64,000 nt of DNA from Candidatus Bathyarchaeota archaeon. Its GTDB lineage: Archaea; Thermoproteota; Bathyarchaeia; Bathyarchaeales; Bathycorpusculaceae. Below are positions 14,132 to 19,276 of this stretch, one piece after another. A program made the position numbers and the translations under genes. Under the pieces are notes generated by a model. It worked only from the letters and a program-made list of their open reading frames with translations. It was not told the DNA's origin and did no database searches. The stretch is from NCBI GenBank assembly GCA_026014705.1, contig JAOZHU010000035.1, positions 1 to 64,000 on the forward strand, in the 5' to 3' direction. The first letter of the stretch is position 1. Each line of letters opens with the position of its first letter.

Positions 14132-14620
14132 GTAATGGTAGCTTGCGGTCAAGTTTGGTTCACTGTTGGTTGTTATTGTCTAGTTTGTGGCTTAGGGTTT
14201 AAACCTTTTTGCGCAATATGCGTTTTGGGCGTTGTTGTTTTCGGTGTGGTGCACGGTGGTTTTACTGGTGCATTTTGCAGTTGTTTGTGTTTGGTGCTTG
14301 GTTTGTTTCTGTTTGGTTGTTGGTTGTGGTTTGTGCAGGAATGTGTCGCTTCTTGCTGTTGGTTTCTGTCGGCTTAAAACGTGCGGGGTTTTCGCTGTTA
14401 TGCTTGGGGCAATCTATAGCCCCCTTTTAAATAGTTTATATAGTGCTGAAAGCGCTGCTCGGGATGGACCCTCTACTGTTTTCTGCAATGAGTTTCTAAT
14501 ATGCTGCAAATAGGTTTGCGTTTCGGCATGAATTGGGAAACAACTCTTTTGTTCAGCAATTTTTTCTTGGCTGTGTTTGATACTAAAACTTAAATTGTAA
14601 GGTTTGCACCACACATATTT
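14132..14620. other. Intergenic region carrying repeat copy B
   Basis: About 490 bases with no credible gene. The first half is strongly G/T-rich on the plus strand. The second half holds copy B of the 100-bp element (14413-14512) with its TATA region, then about 110 bases of leader before the zinc-ribbon membrane protein. Open frames here are low-complexity (Cys, Val, Leu, Phe) products of the base skew. Confidence 0.6.
14413..14512 (+). repeat. 100-bp dispersed element, copy B
   Basis: This matches copy A (237-336, minus strand) over its whole length: TCTATAGCC, then TTTTAAATAGTTTATATAG, then GCTCGGGATGGACCCTCT, ending CTGCAAATA. The TATA portion at 14425-14442 would start transcription near 14455-14465, so the conserved 3' half would be the first 50-60 nt of the transcript of the downstream operon, or a separate small RNA. 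Confidence 0.75.
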
Positions 14621-14974
14621 ATGAAACTCCTAACGGTGTTGGGCGCTGTTGTCGTGGCTATTCTGTTCTTTTTCGCGGTAATTTTCGCTATGGCGGCTTC
14701 AGTTGCAGCAACTACGACACGGTTAGCCGTAAGCATGATGCTGTTCGCTATTGGTTTAATCGTGGCTGTGGCAACTTATTACATGACGCGGAAGCCCAGA
14801 ACCGTTATTCATCAACTGGAGCTCTCAGGGCAAATGCAAGCCGCGGAGTTGAAGTGCCCGCGTTGCTCCGCCTCAGTTAACGCAAATCAGATTAAACTTA
14901 TTTCAGGCGTGCCATATGCCACATGCCCCTATTGTGGTAACACATTTGAGGTGGCTGAGGAACCGAAATGGTGA
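14621..14974 (+). CDS. Two-helix membrane protein with C-terminal zinc ribbon
   Basis: A 117-residue protein. Two membrane helices cover about residues 4-30 and 35-54 and are followed by a cytoplasmic zinc ribbon with CPRC (about 86-89) and CPYC (about 106-109). No known family assignment. It overlaps the next gene by 7 bases and shares its promoter inside repeat copy B, so it belongs to the same operon as the cysteine-tailed membrane protein and the radical SAM enzyme. A role in that system is inferred from linkage only. Confidence 0.72.
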   Translation: MKLLTVLGAVVVAILFFFAVIFAMAASVAATTTRLAVSMMLFAIGLIVAVATYYMTRKPRTVIHQLELSGQMQAAELKCPRCSASVNANQIKLISGVPYATCPYCGNTFEVAEEPKW

Positions 14975-16623
14975 AGAAGCGCCAGTGGCTCTCGATTCTT
15001 GTTTTCTTTGTGATTTGTTTCACGTTTGTCGCTGCCTCTGCTCAGGCTTGGACAGGCACCTTCCACCTTGAACATGAGTGGGTGAAAATCTGGATAAACC
15101 AAGACGGCACGATAGACCTGCTCTACGACATACGCCTGAAGCTGGATTCAGGTGATTCGATAAGCCGAGTGTTCATCGGACAGCCCCAGCGCGACTTCAC
15201 AATAGGCACAGCAATCGATGGATACGGCAACGTTTTAGCTGCCACCGACATAAGCTCTGGAAGCGACTACAGGGTCCAAGTAAAATTCATATGGGAAATG
15301 GCAGTGGGAGAAAGCTTGAGTTTTAACCTCACAACAAACGTCGCGAACGTGCTTTACAATGACACGATGAACCCCGGCAACATCGGCATGCAATTCACAC
15401 CAACATGGTTCGAAGCTCCAATCTACGACCTGCGCATACAAATCGTCCTCCCTCCAAACGTTAAGACAGATGAAGTGAAAACTGCGCAGGAAGCGTACTG
15501 GAACAAAACGGCAGACGAAGAAGGCAGATTAACGGTTTACTGGGAAAAGCAAAACCTCGCATCAGGTCAAAAATACCCAATAGGCATATCTTTCCCCGCA
15601 AAGTACTTACCCGACTATGAACCTATCACCACACCCACGTCACAGCCGCCTACAGAAGAAAACGGCGAAGACTCGTACGCCTTAGTAGTCATTGCATGCG
15701 TGTTCGTGTTTCTGGCGGTTGCCATAGCCCTATTTGTTGCCCGCAAAAAACCCTACACTGCACCGAAAGTCAGCATGGAGACTCTCGGCGTAAGACGCGG
15801 ATTAACCGCAGTTGAAGCCTCATTTCTTCTTGAAATGAAACCAGCACAGATAGTCACCGAAATTCTCTACAGCTTACTCCAAAAACGCGCAGTATGGACT
15901 GAGGCAACCAACCCCGCGCTCAAACTGCAAATAATGCCCGAATACAAAGATAAAACAGGCACCAAAGAAAACCCTCTGCGTTATTATGAAATAGACTTTC
16001 TCAACGCCGTGAAAGCCGACGGAACACTCGACGAAGAAAAGCTAGCCCACACCATAATGTACTTGCGCGACACAGTGGAGCAGAAACTACGTGGATACAG
16101 CCGACGCGACACCGTAGACTACTACCGAAAAATCGTCGATAAAGCATGGACACAAGTGGAGCAAGCTGGCACAGCTGACATCGCATCGAATGCCTACGAC
16201 GAGCAACTGCTCTGGCTTCTGCTCGACCCCAACCACCGAGCGCGCACAGAAAACGTCTTCCAAAACCGCACCTTCGAACCAAACCCCCTATGGTTCTGGT
16301 ACTGGCACGGCTATCACCATTACCACCCGAATCCCACGTACACTCCGCCAATCAACACCTCAAACCCAACTGCGAAGCCACCAGCAATCCCCGGCGCAGA
16401 ATTCGCAGACAACATTGCCACAGCAGTCGAAAAAACCTCCAGTGACATCGTGATTAACCTCGAAAAATTCGCCAACGCCATCCTCCCACCGCCACCTTCA
16501 ACCAAAACGTCACGTGAACCAGCCCGCCATGGCAGCGGTTGCGTCTGCGCCTGTGCTTCATGTGCCTGCGCTTGTGCCTGCGTTTCCTGCGCTTGCGCCT
16601 GTGCCGGCGGAGGTGTCGGTTAA
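14968..16623 (+). CDS. DUF2207-like membrane protein with a ten-cysteine C-terminal tail
   Basis: A 551-residue protein. A signal peptide (about 1-27) precedes an extracytoplasmic beta-rich domain (about 28-215) resembling the N-terminal domain of DUF2207 proteins. A Thr/Pro linker leads to a membrane helix (about 229-252) and then a cytoplasmic region with a DUF2207-like helical domain (about 265-400). A His/Tyr/Trp/Pro patch follows (WFWYWHGYHHYHPNP). The chain ends in a cysteine-alternating tail that includes SCACACACVSCACACAGGG, with ten cysteines in the last 27 residues. The next gene, two bases downstream, is a radical SAM/SPASM enzyme with an N-terminal region resembling a peptide-binding PqqD-like domain. 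Modification of the tail by that enzyme is a linkage-based inference. Codon use is normal through the tail. Confidence 0.75.
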   Translation: MVKKRQWLSILVFFVICFTFVAASAQAWTGTFHLEHEWVKIWINQDGTIDLLYDIRLKLDSGDSISRVFIGQPQRDFTIGTAIDGYGNVLAATDISSGSDYRVQVKFIWEMAVGESLSFNLTTNVANVLYNDTMNPGNIGMQFTPTWFEAPIYDLRIQIVLPPNVKTDEVKTAQEAYWNKTADEEGRLTVYWEKQNLASGQKYPIGISFPAKYLPDYEPITTPTSQPPTEENGEDSYALVVIACVFVFLAVAIALFVARKKPYTAPKVSMETLGVRRGLTAVEASFLLEMKPAQIVTEILYSLLQKRAVWTEATNPALKLQIMPEYKDKTGTKENPLRYYEIDFLNAVKADGTLDEEKLAHTIMYLRDTVEQKLRGYSRRDTVDYYRKIVDKAWTQVEQAGTADIASNAYDEQLLWLLLDPNHRARTENVFQNRTFEPNPLWFWYWHGYHHYHPNPTYTPPINTSNPTAKPPAIPGAEFADNIATAVEKTSSDIVINLEKFANAILPPPPSTKTSREPARHGSGCVCACASCACACACVSCACACAGGGVG

Positions 16624-16625
16624 AA

Positions 16626-17972
16626 ATGGCTTTCATGCGCAAGATTCTCCGTTTTCCCTCAATTCCCCACGGGCGTTTCACTTACAGGGGAAAAGGAGAG
16701 TTCGAAGGCATGGCGCTGCAATTGCGCGTAGAGCCAGATGGACGCGGCGTCATGGTGATAAACGCGAACACTGTGTTGCATCTTAACGAAACTGCGTCGG
16801 CTTATGCCTATTTCTTCATGCAGGGTGTGCCTGAAAGCAGCACGTTACAGAAAATTCGGCGAATGTACCGCGTAACTGCTGCGCAAGCGAAGGCAGACTA
16901 CGAGAAACTCGTTTACACAATAAGCACGTTGGCGCGCACGGAAAAGGTTTGCCCTGTGTCCTTTCTCGACATAGCCAAGGAAGAACCCTTTAGCTATCAA
17001 TACTCTGCACCGCTACGCATGGACTTAGCGCTTACTTTCAAATGCCCGAACAACTGCGTTCACTGCTACGCAGGCGGTCCGCATGAAACCGCGGAATTAA
17101 CCACGACGCAGTGGCGAGAAGTCATAGACCGCCTCAGCGAGATAGGCGTCTTCACCGTGACTTTTACAGGCGGCGAGCCAACACTGCGCGAGGATTTGCC
17201 TGAGCTGTTGCAGTACGCACAGAGTAAAGGCATGGTTACGGGGTTAATAACTAACGGCAGAAAACTCAAGGATAAAGCCTACGTGCAAGCGCTTGAAACA
17301 GCAGGCTTAGACTTTGTGCAGATAACACTTGAATCCCATTTACCGAAAATACATGATTTGGTAACCGCGGCAGAGGGCAGCTGGAAGGAAACCGTAACAG
17401 GAATAAAAAACTCTGTAAAATCGCAAATATACGTCACCACGAACACGACGCTAAACAAGCACAACGCTCCAGATTTCCTGCGAACTGTCGACTACCTCAA
17501 GGAGCTCGGCGTCGCCGCTTTCGGCTGTAACAGCCTCATCTACTCGGGAAAAGCAACCGCTGTAAGCCAAGAATTCACCCTGCCCATCAAAACCCTCAGC
17601 GAGTTACTACCGAAAATCCGAGACAAAGCCCAAGAACTCTCGCTGAAATTCCTTTGGTACACGCCCACACAGTACTGCCGCTTAGACCCTGTACAGCTAG
17701 GTTTAGGCGTTAAATCCTGTACTGCAGCACTCATCAACATGTGCATTGCGCCGAACGGAGACGTTTACCCGTGCCAGAGCTACTTTGAAAGCTTAGGCAA
17801 AATCCTTGCTGACTCATGGCAAGACATATGGAACAACCCGGTTGCCGCTGGGCTTCGCCGCAGAGATTACGCGGAGCCAAAATGTAGGGAATGCACGCAA
17901 CTGCAGGTGTGCGGAGGCGGCTGCCCTCTGGAGCTAAAAAAGGACAGATACCTCTGCGCGCAAACTGGCTAA
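16626..17972 (+). CDS. Radical SAM/SPASM enzyme with N-terminal PqqD-like region
   Basis: A 448-residue protein. Residues about 20-115 resemble a PqqD-like recognition domain (VINANTVLHLNETASAYAYF). The radical SAM core begins with FKCPNNCVHCYAGG (CxxxCxxC at about 141-148), then FTGGEPTLRED. A SPASM region has CIAPNGDVYPC, CRECTQLQVCGGGC and a last cysteine near the end, ligands for auxiliary Fe-S clusters. Enzymes of this build install thioether or C-C links in ribosomal peptides. The start at 16626 is chosen because GGAGGTG lies 11 bases upstream, inside the end of the preceding gene, and because the longer frame is only a shadow of the cysteine tail. The third gene of the 14.6-18 kb operon. 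Confidence 0.88.
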   Translation: MAFMRKILRFPSIPHGRFTYRGKGEFEGMALQLRVEPDGRGVMVINANTVLHLNETASAYAYFFMQGVPESSTLQKIRRMYRVTAAQAKADYEKLVYTISTLARTEKVCPVSFLDIAKEEPFSYQYSAPLRMDLALTFKCPNNCVHCYAGGPHETAELTTTQWREVIDRLSEIGVFTVTFTGGEPTLREDLPELLQYAQSKGMVTGLITNGRKLKDKAYVQALETAGLDFVQITLESHLPKIHDLVTAAEGSWKETVTGIKNSVKSQIYVTTNTTLNKHNAPDFLRTVDYLKELGVAAFGCNSLIYSGKATAVSQEFTLPIKTLSELLPKIRDKAQELSLKFLWYTPTQYCRLDPVQLGLGVKSCTAALINMCIAPNGDVYPCQSYFESLGKILADSWQDIWNNPVAAGLRRRDYAEPKCRECTQLQVCGGGCPLELKKDRYLCAQTG

Positions 17973-18055
17973 GAACAAAGGCGCAACACACTCCAAACTG
18001 TACATGCATGCGTTTATAGATGTGAAGACACTTGAAGTCATCACAAAGCAAGACC

Positions 18056-19276
18056 GTGAAGCTAGTGATTTTCGATGTTGAAGGAGTACTGATTCCAAAG
18101 AACCGTTTCCTCTTCGAAATCGGCAAAAACCATAGCGCGGCGCAAATGCTGCGCGTTCTGCTGTTCGGCTTTCTCTACGGACTGCACGCTGTTTCATTGA
18201 AATCCGCGTTAAAACACATTTTCGCAGGCTTACGCGGTGTGAAACTTGATTGGCTTTTGACAGTTGCCGAAAAAGTGCCCATAGCATCTGACGCCGGAGA
18301 GCTTTTCTGCCAACTTAAAGCACAAGGCTGCAAAGTCGCACTGATCAGCTCAGGAATTCCTACCGCAATAGTCAGCCATTTGGCCGCCAAACTTGGGGCG
18401 GAATACGGCTTCGGCTTTGATCTGGTGCTGAACGATGGTGTTTTGACAGGCGAGATTCGCGGAGACGTCATAGAACGCAACGGGAAGCTTCATCTCTTAT
18501 CAAAAATCCTCGCGACTGAAAAACTAAGCCTCAGCGACTGCGCCGTCGTAGCTGACGACCGCAACAATGTTGCCCTCTTTGTTCGCGAAACTCGTAAAGT
18601 AGCCTACAACCCTGACTTCAGGATACTCATCAAAGCAGACACGGTAGTGACAGGCAAACTGCAAAAAATTTTGCTTGCTGTGAATGGACAACCGCCACAG
18701 CATGCTTTACTCACACGGAACGACGTTTTGAGAGAAATCATTCACGCTTCAGGCGTCTCTGTGCCACTTCTCTGCAGCTTAATCGGCGTCAATGCGGTTA
18801 TCCTGCTGATTGGCGCTGTATCCGCGGTTTACGCTGCATCCGAACTGTTGCGCATGGAAAAGAAAAATCTGCCTCTCATTTCAGCGATAACACGCCATGC
18901 TGCTTCGCACACGGAGCTTTACGAGTTCACCGCTGCGCCTTTGTATTTTGCCACAGGCATAATGCTAACCCTGCTGTTTTTTAAAGCGCCTGTAAGCAGT
19001 GCCGCTATCGCCATTTTCACTTTAGGAGACAGTGCCGCCTCAATTTTCGGAAGCATGCTACCGCGAAAGCCTTTGCCGTTCAACAAGGGCAAAACTTTGG
19101 TTGGTTCCATCGCAGGGTTCATTTTTGCTTTTGCGGCTGGCGCATTTTTCGTACCGCCTCCGATAGCGCTAGTTGGCGCGGCAGCAGCCATGACTATTGA
19201 GTCTTTGCCGTTGCCTGTGAACGACAATGTTGTGATGCCTGTCTGCACGGCTGTAATTCTCGCGTTCATTATCTGA
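18056..19276 (+). CDS. HAD phosphatase fused to a dolichol/phytol-kinase-like membrane domain
   Basis: About 406 residues. The N-terminal half is a HAD-IB/SerB-like domain with the nucleophile loop VIFDVEGVLIP, the LISSGIP threonine/serine motif and VVADDRNN. The C-terminal half, from about residue 235, has about six membrane helices and the CTP-dependent prenol/dolichol kinase signature LGDSAASIFGSMLP...KGKTLVGSIAG. A linked kinase and phosphatase acting on isoprenoid or lipid phosphates is the simplest reading. The frame is open to a TTG at 18032, but the TATA-like CGTTTATAG at 18011-18019 places the transcript start beyond it, so the GTG at 18056 is preferred. Glutamate replaces the usual second Asp of the HAD DxD motif. 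Confidence 0.82.
   Translation: MKLVIFDVEGVLIPKNRFLFEIGKNHSAAQMLRVLLFGFLYGLHAVSLKSALKHIFAGLRGVKLDWLLTVAEKVPIASDAGELFCQLKAQGCKVALISSGIPTAIVSHLAAKLGAEYGFGFDLVLNDGVLTGEIRGDVIERNGKLHLLSKILATEKLSLSDCAVVADDRNNVALFVRETRKVAYNPDFRILIKADTVVTGKLQKILLAVNGQPPQHALLTRNDVLREIIHASGVSVPLLCSLIGVNAVILLIGAVSAVYAASELLRMEKKNLPLISAITRHAASHTELYEFTAAPLYFATGIMLTLLFFKAPVSSAAIAIFTLGDSAASIFGSMLPRKPLPFNKGKTLVGSIAGFIFAFAAGAFFVPPPIALVGAAAAMTIESLPLPVNDNVVMPVCTAVILAFII

Follow-up and report, generated by a model that had tools for sequence, protein, structure and literature searches.

The window, a 64,000-nucleotide stretch of DNA from Candidatus Bathyarchaeota archaeon (contig JAOZHU010000035.1; draft genome of 1.99 Mb, 96% complete), carries a cassette of three forward-strand genes, here named A, B, and C. 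Gene A (14621..14974) encodes a 117-aa protein with two transmembrane (TM) segments and a C-terminal zinc ribbon that ends in EEPKW (from translation, hydropathy, and homologues). Gene B (14968..16623) encodes a 551-aa membrane protein with a cysteine tail (open reading frame, homologues, and structural model). Gene C (16626..17972) encodes a radical SAM/SPASM enzyme (Pfam and NCBIfam profiles and homologues) with a predicted N-terminal recognition element (RRE) of the kind found in enzymes that modify ribosomally synthesized and post-translationally modified peptides (RiPPs). A and B overlap by the seven bases ATGGTGA (14968..14974, forward strand), identical in 39 of 40 loci, which fix Trp as the last residue of A and Met-Val as the start of B; the overlap would imply translational coupling of the two genes. 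B and C are separated by two bases in the window and mostly by −1 to +3 bases across the 40 loci. These coordinates, the overlap, and the gap had been given by an earlier sequence-only reading of the locus and were confirmed. A putative TATA-like element, cTTAAATTg (14589..14597, forward strand), lies ~28 bp 5' of the A start, and TTTAAAT or TTAAATT is visible ~28–30 bp 5' of the A start in most f1 relatives. A single promoter and a near-leaderless transcript are likely for the cassette, judging from the DNA.

Protein A contains two hydrophobic segments and two CxxC pairs, the latter forming the zinc ribbon CPRC ... CPYC (14855..14935, forward strand). The description of A as a zinc-ribbon membrane protein was upheld by the hydrophobic segments and by the four Cys, which are invariant in 27 relatives; single zinc-ribbon profile matches were weak and below the cut-off.

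The last 28 residues of B (GCVCACASCACACACVSCACACAGGGVG) hold ten Cys within 22 residues (525–546). The tail proper, CVCACASCACACACVSCACACA (16540..16605, forward strand), is followed by GGGVG. The count of ten Cys in the sequence-only reading was correct, but the string it quoted holds only seven. Segment-wise means of pairwise identity and of the ratio of nonsynonymous to synonymous change (pN/pS) were calculated over 35 B proteins, and the tail was the most constrained part of B (93% identity, pN/pS of 0.07), followed by the cytoplasmic domain (57%, 0.36), the extracytoplasmic domain (43%, 0.49), the linker that leads into the tail (37%, 0.61), and the TM segment (20%, 0.74). Among 62 distinct sequences, the tail was near-invariant, with ten Cys in 59 and nine in three, and the only spacer residues between the Cys were A, V, S, H, N, T, and G. 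The codons drift freely (198 TGT and 149 TGC, with all four Ala codons in use). As synonymous change is near saturation everywhere in B, the tail is kept as protein and is not a recent DNA repeat, and its recurrence in ~60 genomes with free synonymous drift and almost no amino-acid change shows that it is not a product of chance. Relatives whose B domains are 31–42% identical to those of the window's B retain 86–91% of the tail. Natural nine-Cys tails occur at L097 (genome G017), L138 (G359), and L139 (G436); that of G017 is missing one Cys-Ala pair.

The tail is attached to a large membrane body, family B proteins being 525–594 aa long. The AlphaFold model of B, built with 35 sequences, places in order an N-terminal helix, a beta domain (31–210), a TM helix (234–258), a helical/winged domain (281–430), and a further helix (477–505), while the linker and the Cys tail are disordered. 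Residues 1–25 (14968..15042, forward strand here and for all following features) form a signal peptide or first TM segment by hydropathy, with a modelled helix at 3–23. The extracytoplasmic beta domain (15046..15657) reached pLDDT values of >90 over most of its length, and the cytoplasmic helical/winged domain (15745..16287) was also modelled with high confidence. The TM segment between them (residues 239–257 by hydropathy; 15682..15738) precedes the motif ARKK, and because positive residues come after this segment, the C-terminus of B is placed in the cytoplasm. The helix at 477–505 (16396..16482), located before the tail, is amphipathic (hydrophobic moment p ~0.001 against shuffles) and conserved, with 60% identity compared with 37% in the adjoining linker.

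The beta domain is distantly related to DUF2207, whose layout (signal or TM segment, extracytoplasmic beta domain, TM segment, and cytoplasmic region) is shared by B. The label "DUF2207-like" given by the sequence-only reading held only as a distant likeness: PF09972 was matched by 12 of 34 family B proteins at E<=1 (best 1.6e-5), a Pfam scan of the window's own B found no match, and the gathering score was not reached in the 41 genomes searched (best 23.4 vs 24.4 bits). A PDB profile search with the B sequence also gave no matches. Foldseek with the modelled beta domain retrieved ribophorin I (8b6l_O, 1.5e-11) and the N-domain of an M1 aminopeptidase (4gaa_B, root-mean-square deviation (rmsd) of 3.8). 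As a side observation, the PDB likenesses to ribophorin I (oligosaccharyltransferase OST1) and to M1 aminopeptidase N-domains span E-values from 1.5e-11 to 1e-7, and one B relative matched Pfam Ribophorin_I at E 0.0038; judging by the model, the ribophorin I fold may have an archaeal relative in this domain.

A cytoplasmic tail, as previously proposed, fits this topology, but the tail is itself hydrophobic, with a Kyte-Doolittle hydropathy of 2.1 over 19 residues, which is in the TM range, and by composition it may associate with the membrane. The tail might accordingly be a membrane-inserted, small-residue, Cys-rich hairpin or helix, possibly lipid-attached, that serves as an anchor or oligomerisation element and is attached or altered by C. 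The positive mean charge of the preceding linker (+2.4) and weak CYSTM matches in 4 of 34 members (E 0.18) would agree with this. The CYSTM E-values are at chance level, however, a TM helix would not usually alternate between Ala and Cys, and the tail is left disordered by AlphaFold; we consider this explanation quite improbable.

The distribution of the cassette was surveyed within one archaeal phylum. B homologues were found in 34 of 91 genomes of the window's family and in further families of its order and phylum; a scan of genome contigs with B alone returned only three loci, all of Candidatus Bathyarchaeota. Co-occurrence was examined in 163 genomes of the order using a nine-Cys tail pattern and a threshold of E<=1e-90 for C. 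The tail pattern matched 61 genomes (one match, in G022, was non-coding and without an open frame) and C was found in 60, with 58 genomes common to both lists. In each of the 60 tail-bearing genomes, C, a 5' part of it cut by a gap, or its decayed remains (one genome) lay directly 3' of the tail. The linkage of a putative precursor gene to a putative modifying enzyme, as expected of RiPP systems, was observed in 60/60 tail-bearing genomes of the order. C without the tail was represented by a single fragment at an assembly gap (G463, N gap), and G017 carries C with a nine-Cys tail variant outside the pattern list. The exceptions were all assembly gaps, this variant, a pseudogene pair, or the non-coding match, and the adjacency that the sequence-only reading had put forward for checking holds throughout: no tail-bearing homologue was found without the radical SAM gene in the 163 genomes.

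Order-wide, C follows B and A sits 5' in every locus that the contig reaches, and over all loci an A homologue lies directly 5' of B in nearly every case. The flanking genes vary between lineages, with no further gene family adjoining the cassette in all of them, and A-B-C is therefore taken as the unit. The decay of B and C is also joint. Both are frameshifted pseudogenes in G075 (L106), and in G044 (L108) A and B are truncated, C is absent, and the HAD-like gene found after C in other loci comes next.

Tailed B and C were also found outside the order (G251, G359, G436, and G418). In these relatives from other families, the B bodies are 31–42% identical and the tail and C are still clustered, in rearranged order: C, A (reverse), and B in G436 (L139), and B (reverse), A, another gene, and C (reverse) in G359 (L138). 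As the linkage survives rearrangement, it argues for a functional connection and not only for shared descent. The B and C trees agree (Spearman 0.97), sharing 25 of 40 splits compared with 0.2 expected by label shuffling.

This co-occurrence bears on an alternative in which the unmodified tail serves as a metal-thiolate or iron-sulfur binding array and C acts elsewhere or serves metal-site assembly. CxCxC arrays are typical metal ligands, and A carries a zinc ribbon, both of which favor such an array. Bufferins, which are modified Cys-rich peptides, chelate copper (PMC12452194). However, no Pfam metallothionein profile matched the window's B or family members at E<=1, although HMMER may miss short low-complexity tails. 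The spacers are small and almost unchanging, a constraint for which simple metal binding would have no need, and the absence of any gene family recurring beside the cassette in all lineages also speaks against it. As it further does not explain why the tail so strictly accompanies a peptide-binding radical SAM enzyme, we regard an unmodified array as unlikely.

The assignment of C as a radical SAM/SPASM enzyme was confirmed by Pfam (Radical_SAM 1.4e-22, SPASM 3.2e-10), and SPASM was matched in all 36 family C proteins. The radical SAM cluster motif CPNNCVHC (C140, C144, and C147; 17043..17066) is invariant in 40/40 C proteins, all of which have the CX3CX2C pattern. The seven-Cys SPASM motif has the form CX9-15GX4C-gap-CX2CX5CX3C-gap-C (PMC6231123). 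The window's C holds all seven Cys, as CX12GX4C...CX2CX5CX3C...C (C365–C444; 17718..17957), six of which are invariant in 40/40. One further residue, Cys351 (17676–17678), lies outside both motifs and is likewise invariant in 40/40; from its conservation, it is a possible H-atom donor or cluster ligand.

The N-terminal region of C, proposed from sequence to be PqqD-like, is predicted to adopt the RRE fold (residues 16–104; 16671..16937). The Pfam PqqD hidden Markov model matched the window's C weakly (E 0.059); across the family, it matched 30 of 36 members, with a best E-value of 8.5e-5. The AlphaFold model of residues 1–122 (pLDDT 76) consists of three strands followed by three helices, which is the RRE topology, and its best PDB matches by Foldseek were the lasso-peptide RREs TbiB1 and FusB1 with bound leaders. 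Against 5v1v, the probability was 1.00, the rmsd 1.8 Å, and the TM-score 0.68 by target; the Foldseek E-values were weak (0.06–0.4). A sequence search of this region against the PDB gave no match, and the fold search was needed to place it.

The best PDB sequence match of the whole enzyme was the sactisynthase SkfB (6efn, 6.1e-27). Among the NCBIfam profiles, the scores relative to the cut-offs were 144/500 for NirJ2 (best), 123/650 for AhbC, 121.6/500 for AhbD, 95.8/300 for SkfB, 78.9/625 for StsB, and 73.9/850 for AlbA. The three leading matches could indicate a tetrapyrrole or cofactor enzyme (NirJ/AhbD-like) whose linkage to B is indirect. All the scores are far below the cut-offs, and the matches are confined to the radical SAM core and SPASM. 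Moreover, C carries an RRE and, in the 163 genomes of the order, was seen apart from the Cys tail only as one fragment at a gap, which makes a tetrapyrrole enzyme highly improbable.

C carries its own peptide-gripping domain and was always found next to a Cys tail, the sole exception being at an assembly gap. The simplest reading is that it acts on this tail, and we think that C very probably modifies it. It is also probable that A-B-C as a whole constitutes a membrane-tethered, protein-sized RiPP-like system in which C acts on the tail of B, with thioethers as the likeliest linkages. B would be anchored by one or two membrane segments, with the beta domain outside the cell and the helical domain, amphipathic helix, flexible linker, and ten-Cys tail inside. 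A, translationally coupled to B, would probably be a membrane partner or chaperone, its zinc ribbon facing the same compartment. C would bind B through the RRE and perhaps also through the amphipathic helix at 477–505, which is the best candidate recognition element in the model, and its radical SAM center and SPASM auxiliary clusters would then act on the CxCxC tail post-translationally.

SPASM/RRE enzymes commonly make thioethers in Cys-bearing peptide substrates (PMC8326336, PMC6231123), and the three thioethers that QhpD installs in a protein subunit (PMC7876137) are a precedent for such a subunit as a radical SAM thioether substrate. The likeliest product here would be thioethers from Cys sulfur to carbons of the neighboring, almost invariant Ala/Val residues, and the near-invariance of these spacers fits a role as reaction partners. 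The product tail would be compact, hydrophobic, and polycyclic. We put thioethers in particular at slightly below an even chance. We judge it an even chance that the tail becomes a polycyclic thioether (or alternating D/L) structure that remains on the protein and works there as a device for redox chemistry, metals, or the membrane, as a tethered RiPP that is never released; membrane proteins rebuilt in this way by a dedicated enzyme would form a new class. The rebuilt tail would probably have a redox, metal-binding, or membrane-associated function, the first two of which are guesses.

Epimerisation by C would convert alternate residues of the tail to the D form, giving an alternating L-Cys/D-Ala strand or helix without thioethers. 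The strict Cys-x-Cys-x alternation of the tail fits the 1,3 pattern to which PoyD strictly keeps in epimerisation, and two [4Fe-4S] clusters are present in the peptide epimerase EpeE (PMC8326336). These epimerases use one critical cysteine, for which the invariant Cys351 of C could be counted. On the other hand, the targets of epimerases described so far are not so dense in Cys, C with its full SPASM Cys set is more like the cross-linking enzymes, and epimerisation would not need the tail Cys themselves to be invariant. This chemistry is rather unlikely, and thioether formation by C is preferred; the remaining probability goes to other chemistry or an unmodified metal site.

Several observations weigh against a RiPP-like, thioether-forming system. 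B is a membrane protein where a RiPP system would have a short leader/core peptide, and the comparison of neighboring genes across loci revealed no recurrent protease or exporter beside the cassette. The seventh SPASM Cys (C444) is present in 31 of 40 C proteins and missing in nine, and C falls far short of the NCBIfam cut-offs of all named maturase families. We know of no thioether substrate with the CxCxC spacing of the B tail. The genomes all come from a single archaeal phylum, and most are fragmented draft assemblies. The interpretation advanced by the sequence-only reading is nonetheless supported overall, its thioether chemistry being conjectural.

The closest known idea is itself a proposal, in which subsets of bacterial TIGR04222 membrane proteins (mostly Actinomycetota) have Cys-rich tails modified by MNIO enzymes (PMC12452194). 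As with B, a membrane protein with a disordered, low-complexity, Cys-bearing C-terminal tail is linked to a RiPP-type enzyme, and the tail is the proposed substrate. The enzyme, however, is an MNIO (DUF692), which is unrelated to the radical SAM enzyme C, and the TIGR04222 tail is Ser/Gly-rich with Cys, predicted to be periplasmic, and sequence-diverse. The linkage is also looser than in the cassette, as a third of TIGR04222 genomes lack an MNIO (PMC12452194). The two systems thus differ in enzyme class, protein family, tail sequence, predicted membrane side, and domain of life. B was rejected as a TIGR04222 protein, with no profile match in the window's genome, in G359, or, at E<=1, among 35 B proteins.

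In the QhpC/QhpD pair (quinohemoprotein amine dehydrogenase gamma subunit and radical SAM enzyme), the substrate is likewise a protein subunit encoded in one operon with its enzyme (PMC7876137). QhpC differs in being a small bacterial subunit with a 28-residue leader and Cys-to-Asp/Glu bonds, and the B tail has no Asp/Glu acceptors. The tail had been called an unusual target; it is indeed not a free peptide, but the proposed TIGR04222/MNIO pairing and the QhpD protein subunit are precedents. The sactipeptide and ranthipeptide synthases AlbA, SkfB, and CteB share with C the RRE, radical SAM, and SPASM/Twitch architecture and a Cys-bearing substrate next door, although their substrates are short leader/core peptides (PMC6231123, PMC8326336). 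In the ACGX system, too, a radical SAM/SPASM protein (TIGR04340) is paired with a repetitive target that contains Cys. For TIGR04340, C reaches 66 bits where the cut-off is 400, and the ACGX target is a repeat peptide, unlike the membrane protein B. In the open-licence PMC literature, we found no paper joining DUF2207 with radical SAM, and searches on Bathyarchaeia, radical SAM, and RiPP yielded no paper describing the cassette.

RiPP enzymes are known mainly from short secreted bacterial peptides, whereas the cassette is strictly conserved in widespread uncultured archaea (Bathyarchaeia and relatives) and what its enzyme apparently acts on is a resident membrane protein's tail. If true, this would bring protein-anchored devices within the reach of radical SAM chemistry and add a new cofactor-like structure to archaeal biology. 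Because substrate, enzyme, and candidate recognition helix are all defined in sequence, the question lends itself to a direct test with co-expressed genes and mass spectrometry.

More members could be sought with the tail string, which makes a good search key. Many additional phylum-wide DNA matches to CxCxCxxCxCxC were rejected as chance. Among them, a recurrent match to CKCTCQ[NY]CTCTC in many f18 genomes (L197, L198) encodes no Cys protein and lies antisense in another gene, which we take to be that of archaeal ammonia monooxygenase subunit A (amoA). Apparent tails without C or with displaced C in G488, G485, G466, and G462 were due to scaffold gaps: in all four, C starts immediately after the tail and breaks off at an N run. 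A copy of B lacking most of its body in G054 reflected masked sequence (N). Downstream of the cassette in the window, 18032–19276 encodes a 414-aa protein that begins with a HAD/SerB-like phosphatase and has a multi-pass membrane region toward its C-terminus; this gene, which is not kept in other lineages, lies 3' of the cassette in 18 loci.

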